NCBI RefSeq assembly: GCF_010092985.1
Contig: NZ_CP048106.1
Coordinates: 2,666,001 to 2,730,000 of the forward strand
From: Pontibacter pudoricolor
GTDB taxonomy: Bacteria > Bacteroidota > Bacteroidia > Cytophagales > Hymenobacteraceae
Length of the DNA stretch: 64,000 nucleotides
Reading direction: 5' to 3'
Position numbers and translations under genes: made by a program
The notes under the pieces: model-generated
The model's input: only the letters and a program-made list of their open reading frames with translations
The model's database searches: none
What the model was told of the DNA's origin: nothing
Shown here: one piece after another, positions 3,341-11,182 of the stretch
Layout: each line of letters starts with the position of its first letter
How positions within the stretch are numbered: position 1 is the stretch's first letter

Positions 3341-4954
3341 GTGGGTTGTAATTCATGTTCCAGTGGCGGATGCGGCACCAAAAAAACCAGTGCAGATGGC
3401 ACAGAGGTTGTTGGCGGCTGCAAAAGCAACGGCGGCTGCAGCACAGGAGGCTGTAACCGTTTAAATGTGTTCGACTGGCTCAGCGATATGGAAATTCCCG
3501 TGTCGTTTGAGGAGTTTGACATTGTAGAAATAAGATTTAAAGGAGGCCGCAAGGACTTCTATCGTAATACCAACAGACTAGATTTAACAACCGGCGACGC
3601 CGTGGTTGTGGATGTGCCAAACGGCCATCACATTGGTTTTGTATCGCTTAAGGGCGAGCTCGTACGTCTGCAGATGCTGAAGAAAAAAGTTGACAACAAC
3701 GAAGAGATCCGCAGCATTTACCGCATTGCCACCGAGCAGGACATGGAGAAATTCAACGAAGTCCGTGACCTGGAAGGTGGTGCCATGTACCGCTCCCGCG
3801 AGATTATTCAGCAGCTGAGCCTGCGCATGAAACTGTCGGATGTGGAGTACCAGGCGGACAAAAGCAAGGCGACGTTCTACTACTCTGCCGATGACCGCGT
3901 TGACTTCAGGGACCTGATCAAAAAGCTGGCGGAAGAATTTAAAGTACGGATCGAGATGCGCCAGATCAGTCTTCGCCACGAAGCTGGCCGCTTAGGTGGT
4001 ATTGGCTCATGTGGTCGTGAACTATGCTGCTCTACCTGGCTCACCGATTTTAAAAGCGTATCTACTACAGCGGCGCGTTACCAGAACCTCTCGCTTAACC
4101 CAAGTAAACTTTCGGGGCAGTGTGGCCGCCTGAAATGCTGCCTGAACTACGAGCTGGAAACCTACATGGAAGCGCTGAAGGATATCCCTACTGTAAACCG
4201 CCCGCTGCAGACACAGAACGGCGACGCTTTTCTGCAGAAGACAGACATCTTTAAAAAGATGATGTGGTTCGGTTTTAAAGGCGATAATAACTGGTACCCG
4301 GTACCGGTACAACGTGTGCAGGAAATACTGGAACTGAACGCAAAAGGTATTGCCGTAGAATCACTGGCTGTAGTGGTTGAAGAAGAACCGAAGCAGAACG
4401 AGTTTGTGGCGCAGGTAGAAGGTAACCTGGAACGCCTTGACGATAAGTATAAGGCCAAAAAGAAAAAGAAGAAGAAAAAGAAAGGTGCTCTCGGAAGTGA
4501 TGCTGCACAGGCAGAAGCCGCTCCGATGCAGGGACCTGAGAGAAAGCCAAGATCGGAAATGGAGCCGCGCGAAGGTGAACAACGCCGCAACCGTGGGCCA
4601 CGCCCCGACAACAGGAACCGCAACCGCGAAGGTGCGCCTGAAAACCGTGAGCCGCGTGCCGAACGCGATAATCGTGAACCAAGAGCACCGCGCGAAGGCA
4701 ACCGCCCTGAACAGGCAAACCGCGATCGTGGAAACCGTGAGCGTGGTGAACGCAAAGAACGTGAAGGTATTCGTGGTGAACGTGAGAACAGGCCAAGACC
4801 AACCCGTGAGCCAAGAGCACCACGCGAAGGCGGTGACAGGCCTTCTCAGGCACAGCAGCCGGGGCAGGAAGGCCAGCATCCCAAAAAGCATCGTTCCAGA
4901 AAACCGTTCCGGGGAAAAAGACCGGATCAGAATAAACCAGACACCAATGTATAA
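3341..4954 (+). CDS. ricT: PSP1-domain protein RicT (YaaT-like)
   Basis: Start is a GTG with a strong AAGGAG-type ribosome site 7-12 bases upstream. The N-terminus is rich in Cys and Gly (GCNSCSSGGCG and further Cys-Gly clusters up to about residue 40). The PSP1 region follows, with the conserved cysteines in GGIGSCGRELCCSTW and GQCGRLKCCLNYE. In Bacillus the orthologue joins RicA and RicF in an Fe-S complex affecting RNA processing; the Bacteroidota role is less clear. After about residue 375 the protein turns into a poly-Lys run and then a long disordered tail dominated by Arg, Glu, Asn and Pro with repeated REPRAPRE-like units, absent from the Bacillus protein. The tail could bind RNA. It overlaps gldH by 8 bases, so the two are translationally coupled. 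Confidence 0.93.
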   Translation: MGCNSCSSGGCGTKKTSADGTEVVGGCKSNGGCSTGGCNRLNVFDWLSDMEIPVSFEEFDIVEIRFKGGRKDFYRNTNRLDLTTGDAVVVDVPNGHHIGFVSLKGELVRLQMLKKKVDNNEEIRSIYRIATEQDMEKFNEVRDLEGGAMYRSREIIQQLSLRMKLSDVEYQADKSKATFYYSADDRVDFRDLIKKLAEEFKVRIEMRQISLRHEAGRLGGIGSCGRELCCSTWLTDFKSVSTTAARYQNLSLNPSKLSGQCGRLKCCLNYELETYMEALKDIPTVNRPLQTQNGDAFLQKTDIFKKMMWFGFKGDNNWYPVPVQRVQEILELNAKGIAVESLAVVVEEEPKQNEFVAQVEGNLERLDDKYKAKKKKKKKKKGALGSDAAQAEAAPMQGPERKPRSEMEPREGEQRRNRGPRPDNRNRNREGAPENREPRAERDNREPRAPREGNRPEQANRDRGNRERGERKEREGIRGERENRPRPTREPRAPREGGDRPSQAQQPGQEGQHPKKHRSRKPFRGKRPDQNKPDTNV

Positions 4955-5417
4955 GACCCTTGTTTGCTGGGCAGCAGCTTTCTTATTACTGCTCTCCTCC
5001 TGCGACCAGGCACGTGTTTATGAACAAAACATAGACCTGCCGGAAAATAACTGGGCTATAGATAACGCGCCTGTTTTTGAATTTGAAGTAAAAGATACCA
5101 CCCAGAAGCATGATGTTTTCGTGAATCTGCGGTATGGCCTGGAATACGATTTTTATAACCTGTACCTGCAGCATGAGCTAACCGGGCCGGATGGAAAACA
5201 GCTATCCAAAAAACTGCACGAAATACTGCTGATGGATTCTAAAACAGGCAAGCCGCTTGGCAAGGGATCGTCAGACACGTTTGATCTGCAGCAGGTTATT
5301 CTGAGTAATGTTACCTTTCCGAAGGCCGGCATTTACAAGCTTAAATTAACGCAGTATATGCGCCGCGACCCGCTGCCGCACATACAGGCCGTAGGCATAA
5401 GAGTGGCAAAAAAATAA
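4947..5417 (+). CDS. gldH: Gliding motility lipoprotein GldH
   Basis: The 156-residue protein starts at the ATG inside the last codons of ricT. A long open frame upstream is only a shadow of the low-complexity ricT tail. The N-terminus MYKTLVCWAAAFLLLLSSC is a lipoprotein signal with lipobox LLSSC. The body (NNWAIDNAPVFEFEVKD, NLRYGLEYDFYNLYLQ) matches GldH, a lipoprotein needed for gliding and type IX secretion in Flavobacterium. The ricT-gldH pairing is a recurrent Bacteroidota arrangement. The two T9SS cargo proteins near 57-64 kb show that the secretion system is relevant in this organism. Confidence 0.93.
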   Translation: MYKTLVCWAAAFLLLLSSCDQARVYEQNIDLPENNWAIDNAPVFEFEVKDTTQKHDVFVNLRYGLEYDFYNLYLQHELTGPDGKQLSKKLHEILLMDSKTGKPLGKGSSDTFDLQQVILSNVTFPKAGIYKLKLTQYMRRDPLPHIQAVGIRVAKK

Positions 5418-5569: not shown

Positions 5570-6658
5570 ATGGAGCTTACCCTTATCATACTTGGATTTA
5601 CGTTTACTTTATTTTCTTTTCTGCCTTTCCTGAAGGTGCCGTGGTGGTGGGTAAGAATACTGGACTTTCCGAGGCTGCATATAGCCGTAATATTAGCGGT
5701 TATAGTTGCAGCCTATAGTTTACAATACGCCACCTGGACTACCTCCGAGATCGTGATGATTGCGCTTTGGGTGATAGCCATCCTGAACCAGGTTAGGTAC
5801 ATTTACTATTTTACACCGCTGGCCCGAGTAGAAGCGCTCCGCTCAGAAAAACCAAAACCTGCCAATGCCTTTACCATGATGATCGCCAACGTGCGCATGG
5901 TAAACAAAAAGCACCAGGACTTTCTGAAACTGGTACTCCATGAGCACCCGGACATTCTAGTAATGAACGAACCCGATGAAGCCTGGCATGAAAGCGTTCG
6001 CAAAGAGCTTGATAAGCGCTACCCGTATAGTATAAAAAAGCCGCTTGATAACACGTATGGCATGATGCTGTTTAGCAGGCTGAAACTTTCGAACAGCGAA
6101 GTACGCTTTTTAGTGGAAGACGAGATTCCCTCTTTTTACACAGTAGTTGAATTAGAGAGCGGTGAAAAATTTGATCTGTATACGGTGCACCCACAGCCGC
6201 CGCGCCTGATGAAGGATACCGAAACCCGCGAAGCAGAACTGTTGCTGGTTGCTAAAATGGTAAAGAAAACCAAAGTGCCATCGGTAGTTGCCGGCGACCT
6301 GAATGATGTGGCCTGGTCGAGTACCACGAAGTTGTTTAAGCAGATAAGCGGCCTGCTGGACCCACGTGTTGGCCGTGGGTTTTTTAATACCTACAACGCA
6401 CACATTCCAATGTTTCGCTATCCCCTCGATCATGTTTTTTACGACCCTGCTTTCAGGTTGCTGCGCCTGCGCCGTATGGATAAATTTGGCTCCGATCACT
6501 TCCCGATAAGCATAACCCTGAACTATGAGCCTGAGCGCGAAGAAGAGCAGGATGTGCCGGTAGCTAAACCAGAGGACCACCAGGAAGCAAACGAGCTGAT
6601 TCAGGAAGGGCTGGAGAAGGGCGAAGAAAAGAACCGCGAAAAAATGAAAGGCAAATAA
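5570..6658 (+). CDS. Membrane-anchored endonuclease/exonuclease/phosphatase family protein
   Basis: The 362-residue protein has hydrophobic segments over residues 1-25, about 33-50 and about 55-75, then an EEP domain. Motifs include the early NVRM, VMNEPDEAWHE (metal-binding Glu region), VVAGDLNDVAWS (the conserved GDxN) and FGSDHFPISITL (the catalytic Asp-His pair near the C-terminus of the fold). The last 40 residues are acidic and charged. Proteins of this layout hydrolyse phosphodiesters, and the substrate is unknown; the active domain probably faces the periplasm or the membrane surface. A full AACTATAGTT motif sits 35 bases upstream of the start. Confidence 0.85.
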   Translation: MELTLIILGFTFTLFSFLPFLKVPWWWVRILDFPRLHIAVILAVIVAAYSLQYATWTTSEIVMIALWVIAILNQVRYIYYFTPLARVEALRSEKPKPANAFTMMIANVRMVNKKHQDFLKLVLHEHPDILVMNEPDEAWHESVRKELDKRYPYSIKKPLDNTYGMMLFSRLKLSNSEVRFLVEDEIPSFYTVVELESGEKFDLYTVHPQPPRLMKDTETREAELLLVAKMVKKTKVPSVVAGDLNDVAWSSTTKLFKQISGLLDPRVGRGFFNTYNAHIPMFRYPLDHVFYDPAFRLLRLRRMDKFGSDHFPISITLNYEPEREEEQDVPVAKPEDHQEANELIQEGLEKGEEKNREKMKGK

Positions 6659-6684
6659 AAAACCCGCTCAGTTACCTGAGCGGG
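6655..6684 (-). terminator. Terminator for the cold-shock gene (possibly bidirectional)
   Basis: A perfect 9-base stem (CCCGCTCAG with CTGAGCGGG) encloses the loop TTAC at 6663-6684. Read on the minus strand it is followed by a T run, which fits a terminator for the csp gene. It directly follows the stop of the convergent EEP gene and could serve both. Confidence 0.8.
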
Positions 6685-6728
6685 CTAAAATAGATGAATG
6701 AGCCCGAAGGCTAATTATATTTTATAAC

Positions 6729-6920
6729 TTAGATTCTCTCTACGTTAATAGCATTCAATCCTTTTTTTCCGTCTTTAACTTCATAAGACACACGGTCGTT
6801 CTCACGGATCTCGTGAGTAAGGCCTGTCTGATGAACGAAGATTTCCTGATTTGTATCGTCAGCGATGATGAATCCGAAACCTTTTGATACGTTAAAGAAT
6901 TTTACTTTACCTGTTTGCAT
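6729..6920 (-). CDS. cspA: Cold-shock domain protein (CspA family)
   Basis: The 63-residue protein begins at the ATG giving MQTGKVKFFNVSKGFGFI. The frame extends 12 codons further upstream, but those residues are not part of the family. Both RNA-binding motifs are present: KGFGFI (RNP1) and IFVHQTGL (RNP2-like, usually VFVH). Members bind single-stranded RNA and DNA and melt structures at low temperature or under stress. It is transcribed away from the Gly/Ser/Tyr-rich protein gene, sharing a 363-base upstream region with it. Confidence 0.95.
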   Translation of the reverse strand: MQTGKVKFFNVSKGFGFIIADDTNQEIFVHQTGLTHEIRENDRVSYEVKDGKKGLNAINVERI

Positions 6921-7283
6921 GATAATGAATTTAATTAATTGGCGTAAAGGTAACAAACACCAACAAATACACGCGATATTCCATTAATTTATTTTTAAAA
7001 TATTTTCGAAAAAATTTTTGTACCTACCCTTCCCTATCTCCGGCCAACACCTGGCAGCATCTGTTTAAAAGCCTATTTCAAACGCTTCTATTGCCATATA
7101 GCAATAACCATGTTACACTAAGCTCGTATAGCTAAAACGTTCTGTTACACTAAAATGAGCACTCCAAAACACTGCTTACAAAGTGAATCAGAAATCAAAG
7201 CCGATGCCGGAAAAGCAACACTGTTCCAGCATCTGCTTAAAACGTTCCTATTTTTAACTATATAAATCCAGGAGATTTTAACT
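6921..7283. promoter_or_regulatory. Shared upstream region of cspA and the Gly/Ser/Tyr-rich gene, with duplicated motifs
   Basis: This 363-base gap holds two kinds of duplication. A 16-base block reading CAGCATCTGYTTAAAA occurs at 7055-7070 and again at 7227-7242. GTTACACTAA occurs at 7112-7121 and again at 7144-7153. The part next to cspA is very AT-rich and would form the long leader typical of cold-shock mRNAs. A GGAG ribosome site lies about 12 bases before the 7284 start. The duplicated blocks could be operators or leader elements. Confidence 0.5.
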
Positions 7284-9275
7284 ATGAAAGACAACGAGAA
7301 AAATCAATCATCCGGCAGCATGTCGGGTAGCACATCAGGTTCTTCTGACTCATCATCGATGGGTAACAATACAGGAATGGGCAGTAGCTCAGGTAGCTCA
7401 GGATTAAGTTCAGGTTCAGGATTAGGATCCAGTTCAAGATCTGGTTCTGGCTCCGGATCAAGTTCAGGATCAAGTTCAAAATCCGGTTCAGGCTCTTCAG
7501 GATCAAGCTTATCAGGCTCAAACCTTCCATCTCAATCAACTACTTCAGGCAAAAGCAGCAAATCAACTTCAACCGGCTCCGGTTCTACATCTGCTAAAGC
7601 CAAATCAGGCACAAGTACCAAAGCCAAGTCTACTTCTTCTAAATCAGGCAAAAGCTCTACGTCAGGTTCAACTTCATCCGGCTCAGGCCAGTCAGGCGAA
7701 TCTGGTATGGGCGGCTACGGCTCTATGAGCACAGGCAGCTCGCAGCAGCAGGGTGGCGAAAGCAACTATGGTTATGAAGGCGACTTCGGATCATCATCTC
7801 AAGGCAACTATGGCAATCAGGGTAACTATGGTTCGCAGAGTGGCCAGCAAAGTGGATATGGCTCGCAGGGCGGTTATGGCTATGGCTCGCAGCACGGCAA
7901 CTATGGTGGCCAGAGCGGCTACGGTTACCAGGGCGATTATGGTTCGCAGCAGCGCGGCGGAAGTTCGCAGCAGGGCGGTTATGGTAGCCAGGGTAGTTAT
8001 GGCTCACAGCGTGGCTCAGGTTCTGAGAACTGGGGCAGCCAGGGTGGCTACAACTATGGCAACCAGGGCGGTATGGAAGGCAACCGCGTAAGAAGCCAGG
8101 ATACTTATTCGCAGGGTTCTTATGGCAGCTATAGCGGCGCACAAGGCGGCTACTCTGACAGAGAAGGCGACGAGCAGGGCGGCTATGGTGTAATGAACGA
8201 CCAGGGCGGCATGGGCAGCTACAATGCTACAAGAGGCGAAAGCCGTTCTAACTATGGTTCCTCTTCGCAAAGCGGATATGGCGGACAGAGTTCTTCGGGT
8301 ATGGGCAGCCAGGGTGGATATGGCTCATCTCAGGGACAGAGAAGCGGCCAGGGCGGTTACGGATCCTCACAGGGTGGCTATAGTTCGGACCGTGATTCAG
8401 ACTATCGCTCTTCTTCACAGGGTAGCTATGGTTCATCTTCAGGTCGTGGCGGCTCACAACATGGCTCGCAAGGCGGCTACGGTTCATCGCAGGGTGGATA
8501 TGGCAGCGGCCAGGGAGGCTATGGTTCCGGCATGTCAGGCTCAGGATCAACCAGATCAGGCATGCAGGGTGGCTACGGCAGTTCCTCTTCTCAGGGTGGT
8601 CATGGTTCACACGAGCGCGATTCAGATCGTTATGGTTCCATGGGCTACGGTTCGTCAAGAGGAATGAGCGAGTACGACAGAGATGACCGCGGCTCACAGA
8701 GAGGCTGGGATTCACAGCGCTCTATGCAGGGTGGCTATGGCTCACAGGGTGGTTATGGCTCAAGAGGCGGCTCGTATAACGATGAGTACCGTTCATCCCG
8801 CCAAGGTTCGCAGGGCAGCGATTATGGCCAGGGCGGCTATGGTTCATCTTCGGGTCGTAGTGGCTCGCAAGGCGATTACGGACAAGGTGGATATGGCTCT
8901 TCGCGTGGAAGCTCGCAAGGCAGCCAGGGCGGCTACGGCGACAGCAACTATAGCCGCGGCATGAGCGGTGGTTATGGTTACGGTTCTGGTAGCTCAAGCC
9001 AGGGTGGCTATGGTTCATCATCGCAGGGCAGAGGCAGCCAGGGCGGTTACAGAGAAGGCGGCTATGAGCAAGGAGGCCGTGGCGGTGACCAGAGCCGTTA
9101 TGGTTCTATGGATAGCAGCACTTCTTACTACAGCGACAACCGCGGTTCTTCCTCACGCGAGAACTTTAGCGATTATGGCAACAGCGGACAGCAGGGCCGT
9201 AGCCAGGACCGCAACAGCGATCATTATGAAACACGCCGCAGCGACCGTTATCGTAATCCTGAAATCGACTATTAA
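7284..9275 (+). CDS. Gly/Ser/Tyr/Gln-rich low-complexity protein, FUS-like
   Basis: The 663-residue protein is almost entirely made of G, S, Y, Q, R, D and N. Residues 1-144 are Ser/Gly-rich with Lys/Thr patches (about 85-130) and no tyrosine. From residue 145 to the end it is a long array of GGYGSSQ / QGGYGSQ units, i.e. [G/S]Y[G/S] motifs, with interspersed Arg and Asp (DRDSDYRSS, SDRYRNPEIDY at the C-terminus). It has no signal peptide, membrane segment or enzymatic domain. The composition is that of prion-like domains of FUS, EWS and TAF15, which form condensates through Tyr-Arg contacts. A stress or desiccation role is only a guess. A GGAG ribosome site and the ATG at 7284 fix the start; a strong terminator follows. 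Confidence 0.8.
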   Translation: MKDNEKNQSSGSMSGSTSGSSDSSSMGNNTGMGSSSGSSGLSSGSGLGSSSRSGSGSGSSSGSSSKSGSGSSGSSLSGSNLPSQSTTSGKSSKSTSTGSGSTSAKAKSGTSTKAKSTSSKSGKSSTSGSTSSGSGQSGESGMGGYGSMSTGSSQQQGGESNYGYEGDFGSSSQGNYGNQGNYGSQSGQQSGYGSQGGYGYGSQHGNYGGQSGYGYQGDYGSQQRGGSSQQGGYGSQGSYGSQRGSGSENWGSQGGYNYGNQGGMEGNRVRSQDTYSQGSYGSYSGAQGGYSDREGDEQGGYGVMNDQGGMGSYNATRGESRSNYGSSSQSGYGGQSSSGMGSQGGYGSSQGQRSGQGGYGSSQGGYSSDRDSDYRSSSQGSYGSSSGRGGSQHGSQGGYGSSQGGYGSGQGGYGSGMSGSGSTRSGMQGGYGSSSSQGGHGSHERDSDRYGSMGYGSSRGMSEYDRDDRGSQRGWDSQRSMQGGYGSQGGYGSRGGSYNDEYRSSRQGSQGSDYGQGGYGSSSGRSGSQGDYGQGGYGSSRGSSQGSQGGYGDSNYSRGMSGGYGYGSGSSSQGGYGSSSQGRGSQGGYREGGYEQGGRGGDQSRYGSMDSSTSYYSDNRGSSSRENFSDYGNSGQQGRSQDRNSDHYETRRSDRYRNPEIDY

Positions 9276-9303
9276 TCGTATTGATTAGTAAACTATAGAA
9301 AAA

Positions 9304-9330
9304 GCCACTCCTGATCAGGAGTGGCTTTTT
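9304..9330 (+). terminator. Bidirectional terminator after the low-complexity gene
   Basis: A perfect inverted repeat GCCACTCCTGATCAGGAGTGGC at 9304-9325 is followed by TTTTT and preceded by an A run, so it can work for this gene and for the convergent reductase gene at 9357. Confidence 0.88.
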
Positions 9331-9356
9331 GTTTGCCTGATTATAGTTGTAAAGTC

Positions 9357-10229
9357 TTACACAAAACACTCTTTATACTCTTTTACAAACTGCCTGAAGT
9401 TGTGTGGCTTGCGGCCTGTAAGTTCTTCAACACAATTGGTTACCAAATCAGAATTGCCGGCACGTTGCTGCCCGTATAGTTCCAGTAAGGCATGTATCAT
9501 CCAGTCCGGCATTTCCTGTTGTTGCATGCTTTGCATAGCTGCTTCTTCAGGCACATCAACAAAATCTACCTGCTTGCCTGTTACTAAGCTTATGGTAGCG
9601 GCTACTTCGCCAACTGATATAGCTTCGGGGCCGGTCAGGTCATAAATTTTACTTTCGTGTCCATCGCCTGTCAGTACAGCTATGGCTACGGCGGCTATGT
9701 CGCGGGCATCTATGTAAGACACTTTTCCTTCGCCGGCCGGCATGTAAATCTTTCCTTCCGATTTTATAGTTGGTGCGCTATAGTTCTCGAAATTCTGCAT
9801 AAAAGACGCTGCCCGCAGGAAGGTATACGGTATGCCGCTCTGTTCTATGTAGCGTTCTATTTCGCGGTGCCAACGGCAGAGCTGTATCGCATCTTTTGCT
9901 CCGGCTCCCAGCGCTGATAATTTTACGATGTGCTTTACACCGGTCTTTTTTGCTTCATCAACCAGCTTTCTGGCCATCTCAACCTGCCCTTCAGAGAACG
10001 GCGTTACCAGGAAAACTTTATCGGCATGGGTAAAGGCAGCGTGTAGCGAGCCGGGGTCTGTAAACTCCATTTCAACAACTTCCACATCGGGTAGTCGGCG
10101 CAGGTTTTCGCCTTTTATTACGGAGTGCACTCCTGCTCTTACCCGTATCCCGTCAAGCATCGAAAGCTGTTTTACCACTTCTCTGCCCACTGTGCCTGTA
10201 GCACCTGTAACTAATATCGTTTGCTGCAT
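9357..10229 (-). CDS. NmrA-like NAD(P)-binding oxidoreductase
   Basis: The 290-residue protein begins MQQTILVTGATGTVGREVV, a Rossmann GxxGxxG motif of the atypical short-chain dehydrogenase/NmrA group. Further matches are VVEMEFTDPGSL, KVFLVTPF, VKHIVKLSALGA, the active-site-region segment RWHREIERYIEQSGIPYTFLRAASFMQN, and IDARDIAAVAIAVLTG. The canonical YxxxK is not in its usual form. Members act as quinone reductases or as redox-sensing regulators in the cytoplasm; the substrate is not predictable here. Confidence 0.87.
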   Translation of the reverse strand: MQQTILVTGATGTVGREVVKQLSMLDGIRVRAGVHSVIKGENLRRLPDVEVVEMEFTDPGSLHAAFTHADKVFLVTPFSEGQVEMARKLVDEAKKTGVKHIVKLSALGAGAKDAIQLCRWHREIERYIEQSGIPYTFLRAASFMQNFENYSAPTIKSEGKIYMPAGEGKVSYIDARDIAAVAIAVLTGDGHESKIYDLTGPEAISVGEVAATISLVTGKQVDFVDVPEEAAMQSMQQQEMPDWMIHALLELYGQQRAGNSDLVTNCVEELTGRKPHNFRQFVKEYKECFV

Positions 10230-10312: not shown

Positions 10313-11182
10313 TTACCGGTTTGCCGTTTGTTTAGGCCGAAGTGTTACCAGGTATAGCTTGCCTTTTTCGTTCGTGATCAGCAGCTGTTCCGGTGATAAA
10401 AAAAGGACCGCCTCGGCCTGACCGGTTCTGCCAACCGGCAAACAGTAACGTTTCCCATCAAAGCTTATAGTTTCTGAACCGGGCTTAAACAGGTATAAAC
10501 GGCCATAGCCCAGCAAAGCAAACTGGTTAGTATCCGACATCACATCTGCGGCCGTTATCGGAGATTTTACTCTCAACTTTTCGGCAGGAACTATAGTTTG
10601 CCTATCCCCTGAAACCGGGAGTTTATATAGCTGTGTGATGCTTTTAAGTGCGCGGCTTTTCGTAAACAGGTAAAGCGAATCAGAGTGATAAAAGAACGCT
10701 TCGAGGTCGTAATGCTGGCGGCTGCGTGGTGGCGGAAACTCGGTCTGGTCTGCAAAACTGAAGGCTAACGTATCGGTTACCTGCCAGCTGGTTTTGTCTA
10801 AACTATAGATCGTAAGGTCGCGGCGCTGGTTGGCATTATTCCCGAAATCACCGACATACAAATTACCTTTTTCATCCTGGGCAATATCTTCCCAATCTTT
10901 ATTAACTATAGGCACCGGTATAGTTTGCAGCAGTTCGCCTTTCAGGTTAAACAGGTACAGTTCAGGTGCCGAACCACCATCGGGGTGCGTTATAAAAGTG
11001 GAGTCGGTGACACGGGCAAGGCCGGAGCTTTCTTTGATCTGGATGTCCAGTTTCCCAATCTTATCTATCGTTACGGTGTAGTCTTTCCGGAGACGTTCAA
11101 AATCGCTGTTTCGCCTGTCCGGGCCGCAGCCGCAAAGGGCAGTTTGCAGGTAAACATAAAAGGTAAAAAGCTTGATGAGCAT
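10313..11182 (-). CDS. Exported propeller-like protein
   Basis: The 289-residue protein has a short hydrophobic N-terminus ending in LCGCG, possibly a lipoprotein signal. The body contains propeller-type repeats: GLARVTDSTFITHPDGGSAPELYLFNLKGE, WEDIAQDEKGNLYVGDFGNNANQRRDLTIYSL and FFYHSDSLYLFTKSR. The phrase DIAQDEKGNLYVGDFGNN is typical of NHL or SdiA-regulated-type propellers that bind ligands outside the membrane. I see no catalytic residues, and the function is unknown. It is followed downstream on the same strand by the reductase gene after an 83-base gap. Confidence 0.7.
   Translation of the reverse strand: MLIKLFTFYVYLQTALCGCGPDRRNSDFERLRKDYTVTIDKIGKLDIQIKESSGLARVTDSTFITHPDGGSAPELYLFNLKGELLQTIPVPIVNKDWEDIAQDEKGNLYVGDFGNNANQRRDLTIYSLDKTSWQVTDTLAFSFADQTEFPPPRSRQHYDLEAFFYHSDSLYLFTKSRALKSITQLYKLPVSGDRQTIVPAEKLRVKSPITAADVMSDTNQFALLGYGRLYLFKPGSETISFDGKRYCLPVGRTGQAEAVLFLSPEQLLITNEKGKLYLVTLRPKQTANR

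Follow-up and report, generated by a model that had tools for sequence, protein, structure and literature searches.

A tyrosine-rich disordered protein kept across Hymenobacteraceae behind a stress-type promoter element, and its possible role as a condensate scaffold

Can a small bacterial gene encode, as a whole protein, a chain of the kind that drives phase separation in the human FUS family, and is such a composition kept by selection? The question is raised by a 64,000-nucleotide (nt) stretch of DNA from Pontibacter pudoricolor (NZ_CP048106.1, positions 2,666,001 to 2,730,000; hereafter the window), in which a gene at 7284..9275 on the + strand encodes a 663-amino-acid (aa) intrinsically disordered protein. 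An earlier note, made from the letters alone, had called this protein FUS/EWS-like and suggested a condensate-forming role in the cytoplasm. We compared the protein, its upstream region and its locus across the family Hymenobacteraceae. The reading we favour, to which we give about an even chance, is a stress-induced, cytoplasmic, single-copy disordered scaffold whose Tyr/Arg body would condense and whose conserved islands would recruit client proteins.

The protein has two parts, as the note had described. The N-tail (residues 1-144; 7284..7715, +) is rich in Ser (44.4%), Gly (21.5%), Thr (8.3%) and Lys (7.6%) and contains no Tyr, Phe or Trp. The first Tyr is residue 145, with which a body begins (residues 145-663; 7716..9272, +) composed mainly of Gly (29.3%), Ser (23.1%), Tyr (11.2%), Gln (11.2%), Arg (7.1%) and Asp (5.2%), with no Lys at all. 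All 11 Lys lie at or before residue 123, and Arg, with one exception, occurs from residue 224 on. The [G/S]Y[G/S] repeats reported by the note are enriched beyond composition, since 28 of the 58 body Tyr stand in this context against 15.8 +/- 3.5 expected from 2,000 same-composition shuffles; GYG was found 22 times (5.1 expected) and QGGYG 15 times (0.2 expected). The statement that the body consists of such repeats went too far, as near-invariant islands are also present across the genus. Every 15-residue window has a hydropathy below zero (Kyte-Doolittle mean; maximum -0.05), the peak within the first 40 residues is -0.53, too hydrophilic for a signal peptide, the protein has no Cys, and scans of Pfam and NCBIfam returned no family at E<=1. 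AlphaFold2, run with a 28-row alignment, gave a mean predicted local distance difference test score (pLDDT) of 38.3, with no residue at or above 70 and no helix or strand of reportable length. The claim that hydrophobic core, signal peptide and folded domain are all lacking was thus confirmed. The open reading frame is a real gene and no chance frame, because it has orthologues of 565-707 aa, purifying selection acts on its protein letters, an AGGAG ribosome-binding site stands at 7270..7274 (+, conserved in the 29-locus upstream alignment) and a predicted intrinsic terminator with a 14-pair stem follows at 9299..9330 (predicted on the - strand, with T runs in either reading).

Homologues, for which the note had proposed a search, were sought in 204 genomes of the family, comprising 50 of Pontibacter (g1) and 8, 2, 120, 16 and 8 of five further genera (g2 to g6, respectively); they were found in all 50 Pontibacter genomes, with long counterparts in six genera. 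Named records of Pontibacter, which include uncultured isolates, supplied 28 loci with full-length orthologues, the closest named locus being that of P. populi (91% identity in this protein), and the window's genome (4.34 Mb) gave a single match, indicating a single-copy gene. A profile (A1) built from the window and 27 of these 28 loci (L020 was excluded as near-identical to L019) matched 50/50 Pontibacter genomes and, weakly, 11 of the 154 other family genomes; in an order-level sample of 390 genomes 24 matched, none of these outside the family. Seven weak matches were inspected and proved to be 297-378-aa proteins with GS[RK]GGSYNDEY, one with GGSYNDAY. A DNA pattern for GG[ST]YNDEY occurred at exactly one site per genome in 103/204 family genomes (g1 46/50, g2 8/8, g6 5/8, g4 44/120, g3 0/2, g5 0/16), its reversed control in none, and 311 genomes from other families of the order lacked the pattern. 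Inspection of the place after the gene for GldH revealed further long disordered proteins, in g3 (2/2), in g5 (6/6 inspected, of 7 located) and in the three g6 genomes without the exact motif. Eight g4 genomes without it gave four shorter disordered proteins and, by the filter used, four empty loci; one genome of another family (L170) inspected at the same place had no such protein, and the GldH-located genomes G104, G131, G207, G221 and G247 stood outside the comparison. In g2, g3, g5 and g6, which the A1 profile alone did not reach, membership is defined by location, start peptide, composition, promoter and motif; the motif had itself been the means of detecting the g2 members, the long g4 members and five g6 members. 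In g4, probably Hymenobacter to judge by its size as a genus, the protein occurs in a long Tyr-rich and a short Pro/acidic form and is apparently absent from other genomes (L159-L162, L164, L167-L169), which makes a natural loss series. Among the matches listed for literature on disordered, prion-like or low-complexity proteins of Pontibacter or Hymenobacter, the parts of the sources available held no earlier description of the protein.

What the genera share is above all a composition. We compared 60 long members and 17 short g4 forms, all related sequences, with the body delimited by Tyr density (one genome, L081 = L106, was counted twice for Tyr spacing, pN/pS and promoter and dropped from the Lys/Arg, genus-mean and net-charge counts). 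The bodies of the long members contain 9 Lys against 2,164 Arg in 27,432 residues, 52/60 being Lys-free, while their tails contain 791 Lys against 87 Arg in 8,896 residues. Averaged by genus, body Tyr stays within 9.4-11.6% over the six genera, with a coefficient of variation of 0.08, the lowest among 11 residues; the averages for Ser (10.6-21.4%), Asn (4.6-13.7%) and Gly (19.4-37.4%) swing about two- to three-fold. Body Arg tracks Asp plus Glu (r=0.99), the N-tail is net positive and the body slightly net negative in every genus mean, and net charge per residue ranges from -0.014 to +0.011 in the long members; taken alone, charge neutrality is a modest signal (six genus representatives, chi-square 1.53, lower-tail P 0.043). 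Tyr are spaced more evenly than in 500 shuffles in 40/40 long rows shown, which include 8 of the 29 Pontibacter rows (z -2.3 to -4.2); for the window's body z was -3.4, and none of the 500 shuffles was equally even. For prion-like domains, PMC11820118 ranks Tyr as the stronger sticker and describes a destabilising effect of Lys and a stabilising one of neutral charge.

Within this drifting chain the Pontibacter alignment shows seven near-invariant islands, between which letters and lengths change (565-707 aa). These are the start peptide MKxxEKNQ (residues 1-8; 7284..7307), which the starts of most long members in the other genera resemble, residue 6 being Lys there too; GYGYGSQ..YGGQSGYGYQ.DYGS (residues 197-221; 7872..7946; pN/pS, the ratio of nonsynonymous to synonymous differences, 0.16); GGYNYGNQGGMEGNR.R.QD (residues 254-273; 8043..8102; 0.17); G.QGG..DREGD (residues 285-296; 8136..8171; 0.16); SSRGMSEYDRD ... 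QGGYGSQGGYGSRGGSYNDEYRS (residues 450-504; 8631..8795; 0.16); GDQSRYGSMDS.TSYYSDN.GSSSREN (residues 601-627; 9084..9164; 0.12); and, at the C-terminus, RRSDRYR (residues 651-657; 9234..9254; 0.20), all on the + strand. Taken together, pN/pS is 0.15 in the islands (154 codons), 0.59 in the remainder (509 codons) and 0.65 in residues 9-144, all crude values given a pS of about 0.5-0.6 (0.88 in island 1-8). Since pS is alike in and out of islands (0.56 vs 0.63), the constraint acts on the protein and not on the DNA. Across genera only the similar start peptide and the region of GGSYNDEY (8766..8789, +), the letter motif common to other genera, are recognisable: GSxGGSYNDEY or a near variant is present in 57/60 long and 15/17 short members, variants being GSRGGSY[GS]EEY in 6/6 g5 members and GSRGGSYNDQY in 2 of the 3 g6 members without the exact motif.

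The upstream region suggests when the gene may be used. An ECF (extracytoplasmic function)-sigma-type promoter element, AACC-N15-CGTATA, lies at 7106..7130 (+), 153 nt before the ATG. In the 200-nt upstream alignment of 29 Pontibacter loci it is exact in 27, with AACA and AACT in one each; it ends 153-177 nt ahead of the start and its spacer varies. In the form AAC-N14..17-CGTAT[AG], the element precedes 73/76 members (one genome counted twice), against 1/76 for the reverse complement, 0/76 for the reversed pattern and 1.1-1.8% for shuffles; by group it was found in g2 7/7, g3 2/2, g5 6/6, g6 8/8, long g4 5/7 and short g4 16/17, the last at distances of 8-333 nt, some of which may be chance hits, with the starts of L082 and some short forms uncertain. 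L082 and L093, with too little upstream sequence, were left out of this count. AAC at -35 and CGT at -10 are hallmark ECF promoter boxes according to PMC8103513, and the primary-sigma promoter TAnnTTTG occurred within 200 nt upstream at 0/29 loci. The 20 nt or so that follow CGTATA (7131-7150) are largely conserved in Pontibacter and different in L017 and L025; this is possibly the transcript start or an operator. RNA-family matches in 6650-9500 were all below threshold, and that to the cspA thermoregulator (20.5 bits vs 78 needed) was disregarded.

The same element stands before other genes. AAC-N16-CGTATA has 16 sites in the window's genome (G000), 14 in the g5 genome G136 and 16 in Pontibacter G181; 38 of these 46 fall outside open reading frames of 150 or more aa and 27 have a gene start within 220 nt. 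For the reversed pattern (30 sites examined of 65, from G000 and G136) the corresponding figures were 5/30 and 0/30. Neither the longer element form with one mismatch (10 vs 10 control sites) nor AACC-N15-CGTATA (7 vs 8) was in excess. The disordered protein itself is among the downstream products in all three genomes. Pfam placed 20 others as DUF892 (four, in three genomes), DUF4142 (four, in three genomes), HSP20, YceI, DUF305, short-chain dehydrogenase, Acetyltransf_CG and DUF6088 (one each) and six without family; the remaining four of the 27 are one without NCBIfam family and three of MlaD type (two scanned). The MlaD-type genes (L193, L197, L222) are probably coincidence, because the L193 element lies inside an upstream same-strand 137-aa frame and the three sites are alike in most letters. 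Setting these genes aside leaves 24/46 sites, and 21/46 if the three sites of the disordered protein are also taken out. DUF892/YciF, DUF4142 and Hsp20 are stress-response families, and the element may therefore mark a gene set like that of a general stress response. A similar arrangement is described for the EcfG response of Alphaproteobacteria, with AAC at -35 and CGT at -10 close upstream of stress genes and ferritin-like targets (PMC8103513, PMC6599016); the -10 box here is CGTATA instead of CGTT, and EcfG is described as exclusive to Alphaproteobacteria (PMC3892343). No title among the matches listed concerned an ECF-driven general stress response in Bacteroidota.

Two further products behind the element deserve mention. 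In G136 the element starts 88 nt upstream of a second Gly/Tyr-rich disordered protein of 433 aa (L209, 1589-2887, +), which in g5 carries GFFERIGHGIKDAWNSI near its end. It has no Pfam or NCBIfam family, and no counterpart was found in three Pontibacter genomes; a 465-aa relative (L258, G132) has the same element starting 88 nt upstream, and upstream of a 285-aa relative (L259, G009) it was not found. The other product, from the window's genome, is a hydrophilic protein of 124 aa that has no family (L189, 1552-1923, +) and lies 26 nt behind the same element.

Under the scaffold reading, an alternative sigma factor would raise the protein level under stress, Tyr-Tyr and Tyr-Arg contacts would drive condensation of the body, the N-tail would keep the droplets soluble or touch RNA, DNA or acidic surfaces, and the islands, above all GSxGGSYNDEY, would dock client proteins or order chain-chain contacts. 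The condensate interpretation of the earlier note gains indirect support from the Tyr content, even spacing, Arg-over-Lys preference and neutrality kept across six genera and from the stress-type promoter. Its label FUS/EWS-like holds for composition: as in the prion-like domains of the FET family (FUS/EWS/TAF15), the protein is Tyr-dominated and rich in Gly, Ser and Gln, with [G/S]Y[G/S] enrichment and Arg stickers. It does not hold beyond that, since there is no RRM or RanBP2-type zinc finger (no family at E<=1, no Cys), the body is 15% charged with Asp/Glu balancing Arg, the aromatic-free N-tail bears Lys, near-invariant islands are present, and the protein is bacterial. A sequence search of the PDB returned no FUS-family chain, though its bias filter can mask low-complexity matches; homology to FUS or to a solved structure was not found, the sole chain being a phospholipase at E 1.8. 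The protein is not a FET-family member and would share with it at most a FET-type low-complexity-domain behaviour. A precedent in the same phylum is the intrinsically disordered region (IDR) of Bacteroides thetaiotaomicron Rho, which, according to PMC13269538, keeps content and short motifs while length and letters drift, and condenses on starvation. Rho itself is an enzyme with an appended KE-rich/NQ-rich IDR; our protein consists of its IDR alone, which is built on Tyr and Arg, and no folded domain was found in it.

Several observations weigh against the scaffold reading. Among the criteria for prion-like domains as a compositional class, evenly spaced aromatic stickers are present and few charged residues are not: the charged fraction of the body (R 7.1 + D 5.2 + E 2.9 = 15.2%) lies above the 0.02-0.1 given for wild-type domains in PMC11820118. 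Even Tyr spacing could stem from repeat turnover, and the low pN/pS of the islands is partly built in, as they were chosen by eye for conservation. A recognisable motif is missing from both g3 members and one g6 member, and of the eight g4 genomes examined that lack the exact motif, four have no counterpart at this site. The short g4 forms (n=17) have 3.2-5.6% Tyr, a net charge of -0.058 to -0.101 and a spacing z of +0.2 to -2.1; they keep the exact motif in 12/17 and a variant in 3/17 (part of them were detected via it), so that there the job of the motif would be independent of the Tyr body. The promoter pattern was relaxed after the other genera had been viewed, and its genome-wide sites are fewer than those of the reversed controls (43, 22 and 49 in G000, G136 and G181), so that only positions differ. 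Finally, lipoprotein-like starts are seen in no fewer than six of the 27 gene products downstream (L186, L187, L215, L216, L217, L226); the downstream set is therefore not purely cytoplasmic and uninformative on location.

The alternative that survives best, although we consider it unlikely, is a soluble stress protectant of hydrophilin/LEA type, which would shield proteins or hold water in drying or osmotic stress and form no droplets, its composition serving hydration and flexibility only. Hydrophilins, LEA and CAHS proteins are very hydrophilic, disordered desiccation proteins, and hydrophilins are defined by high Gly and hydrophilicity. Our protein resembles them in its extreme hydrophilicity, predicted full disorder and probable stress induction, given the stress-type promoter and the stress-type families downstream of the same element; its Gly content is 27.6% and all hydropathy windows lie below zero, the formal hydrophilicity index aside. 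Unlike them it is Tyr-rich with conserved stickers and no predicted helix, and hydration would leave the constant Tyr content, its even spacing, the replacement of Lys by Arg and the near-invariant islands unexplained.

The gene neighbourhood offers another alternative. The lipoprotein gene gldH (4959..5417, +; Pfam GldH_lipo 3e-33) anchors the locus by synteny in all six genera and was present in 25/25 genomes used for site location. A PSP1/RicT homologue (3341..4954, +; Pfam PSP1 6e-31), the anchor in g1, g2, g4 and g6, precedes it there wherever the fetched stretch extends, g3 and g5 lying outside this comparison. A divergent gene for a CspA-family cold-shock protein (6729..6920, -; Pfam CSD 4e-19) adjoins the disordered-protein gene in g1 (26/26 fully covered named rows, L028 and L029 being covered in part, and 29/29 short rows, the genomes partly overlapping), g2 (7/7), g3 (2/2) and long g4 (6/6); a search of the locus did not find it in g5 (0/6) or g6 (0/8). 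The kept core order is GldH, CspA (divergent) and the disordered-protein gene, on which ground the gene is, by synteny, tied to one family-wide site and neither mobile nor a chance sequence. An endonuclease gene stands between GldH and CspA in g1, g2 and g3 and after GldH in g5, and was not found at the locus in g4 and g6. Downstream, most loci have an NmrA-like oxidoreductase gene (9357..10229, -; Pfam NmrA 2e-36; synteny in many, not all loci) and/or that of a 289-aa protein without Pfam family (10313..11182, -), which every one of the six genera has near the locus in some genomes at least; neither is found at L099-L101, L103, L104, L105 and L109. The PSP1/RicT homologue of the window has a disordered C-tail of about 157 aa (R 22%, E 14%, P 13%) and a nine-Lys run at residue 373; across 22 rows, the tails of this homologue abound in Arg, Lys or both and have hardly any Tyr.

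From these neighbours one could construct an RNA or ribonucleoprotein organiser, in which the disordered protein acts with the CspA-family protein and the basic tail of PSP1/RicT as a split-gene analogue of FUS, the prion-like and RNA-binding parts residing in different proteins. The adjacency of CspA in g1 to g4 and PSP1, with its disordered tail (R 22% in the window), a few genes off in g1, g2, g4 and g6 would fit it. We regard it as improbable: CspA was not found at the g5 and g6 loci, which for the same reason weakens a cold-shock pairing as functional core; the tail of PSP1 varies, being rich in Arg in some genera but in Lys in g2 and in 2/5 Pontibacter rows; and the PSP1-GldH adjacency is probably older than the disordered-protein gene.

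Since most short g4 forms retain the motif, exact or varied, after largely losing the Tyr grammar, the docking peptide and the Tyr/Arg body may well serve functions that can be separated. A stricter version makes the protein a short-motif docking hub only, its Tyr-rich spacer being neutral filler whose composition is kept by repeat turnover, for which the 15/17 short forms with motif or variant and the repeat-like QGGYG units could be cited; it is improbable, as Tyr content, the exclusion of Lys and the balance of charges persist in six genera whose spacers differ. That the protein belongs to an adhesive or amyloid matrix, being exported by lysis or a non-classical route and cross-linked through Tyr, is very unlikely even though a tick glycine-rich adhesive protein phase-separates and a curli-type fibril is known from a Pontibacter (PMC12822426), and several same-element products look like lipoproteins: unlike curli/CsgA amyloid, the protein has neither a signal peptide nor curlin repeats (Pfam, E<=1), no other domain and no predicted strands of reportable length, and export, which would speak against the cytoplasmic role proposed in the note, thus found no support.

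A wider proposal, tentative and on balance unlikely to hold in full, is that Hymenobacteraceae possess an ECF-sigma-driven general stress response with a stand-alone condensate scaffold as its signature product, a counterpart in bacteria of stress-granule core proteins that would have arisen independently of FUS, form droplets through its Tyr/Arg body and dock a client machine through the near-invariant GSxGGSYNDEY; in some Hymenobacter-like lineages the droplet part would have decayed, leaving mainly the docking peptide. Most bacterial condensates studied to date are built by oligomers or folded enzymes to which a disordered tail is appended, while here the disordered chain is the whole protein. 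The sticker-and-spacer grammar was derived from mutated human domains, and six genera that keep stickers, spacing, Arg-over-Lys and charge balance while their spacers change amount to an evolutionary test of it, in a small single-copy bacterial gene. The promoter result, for its part, would provide an entry to a stress regulon of Bacteroidota.

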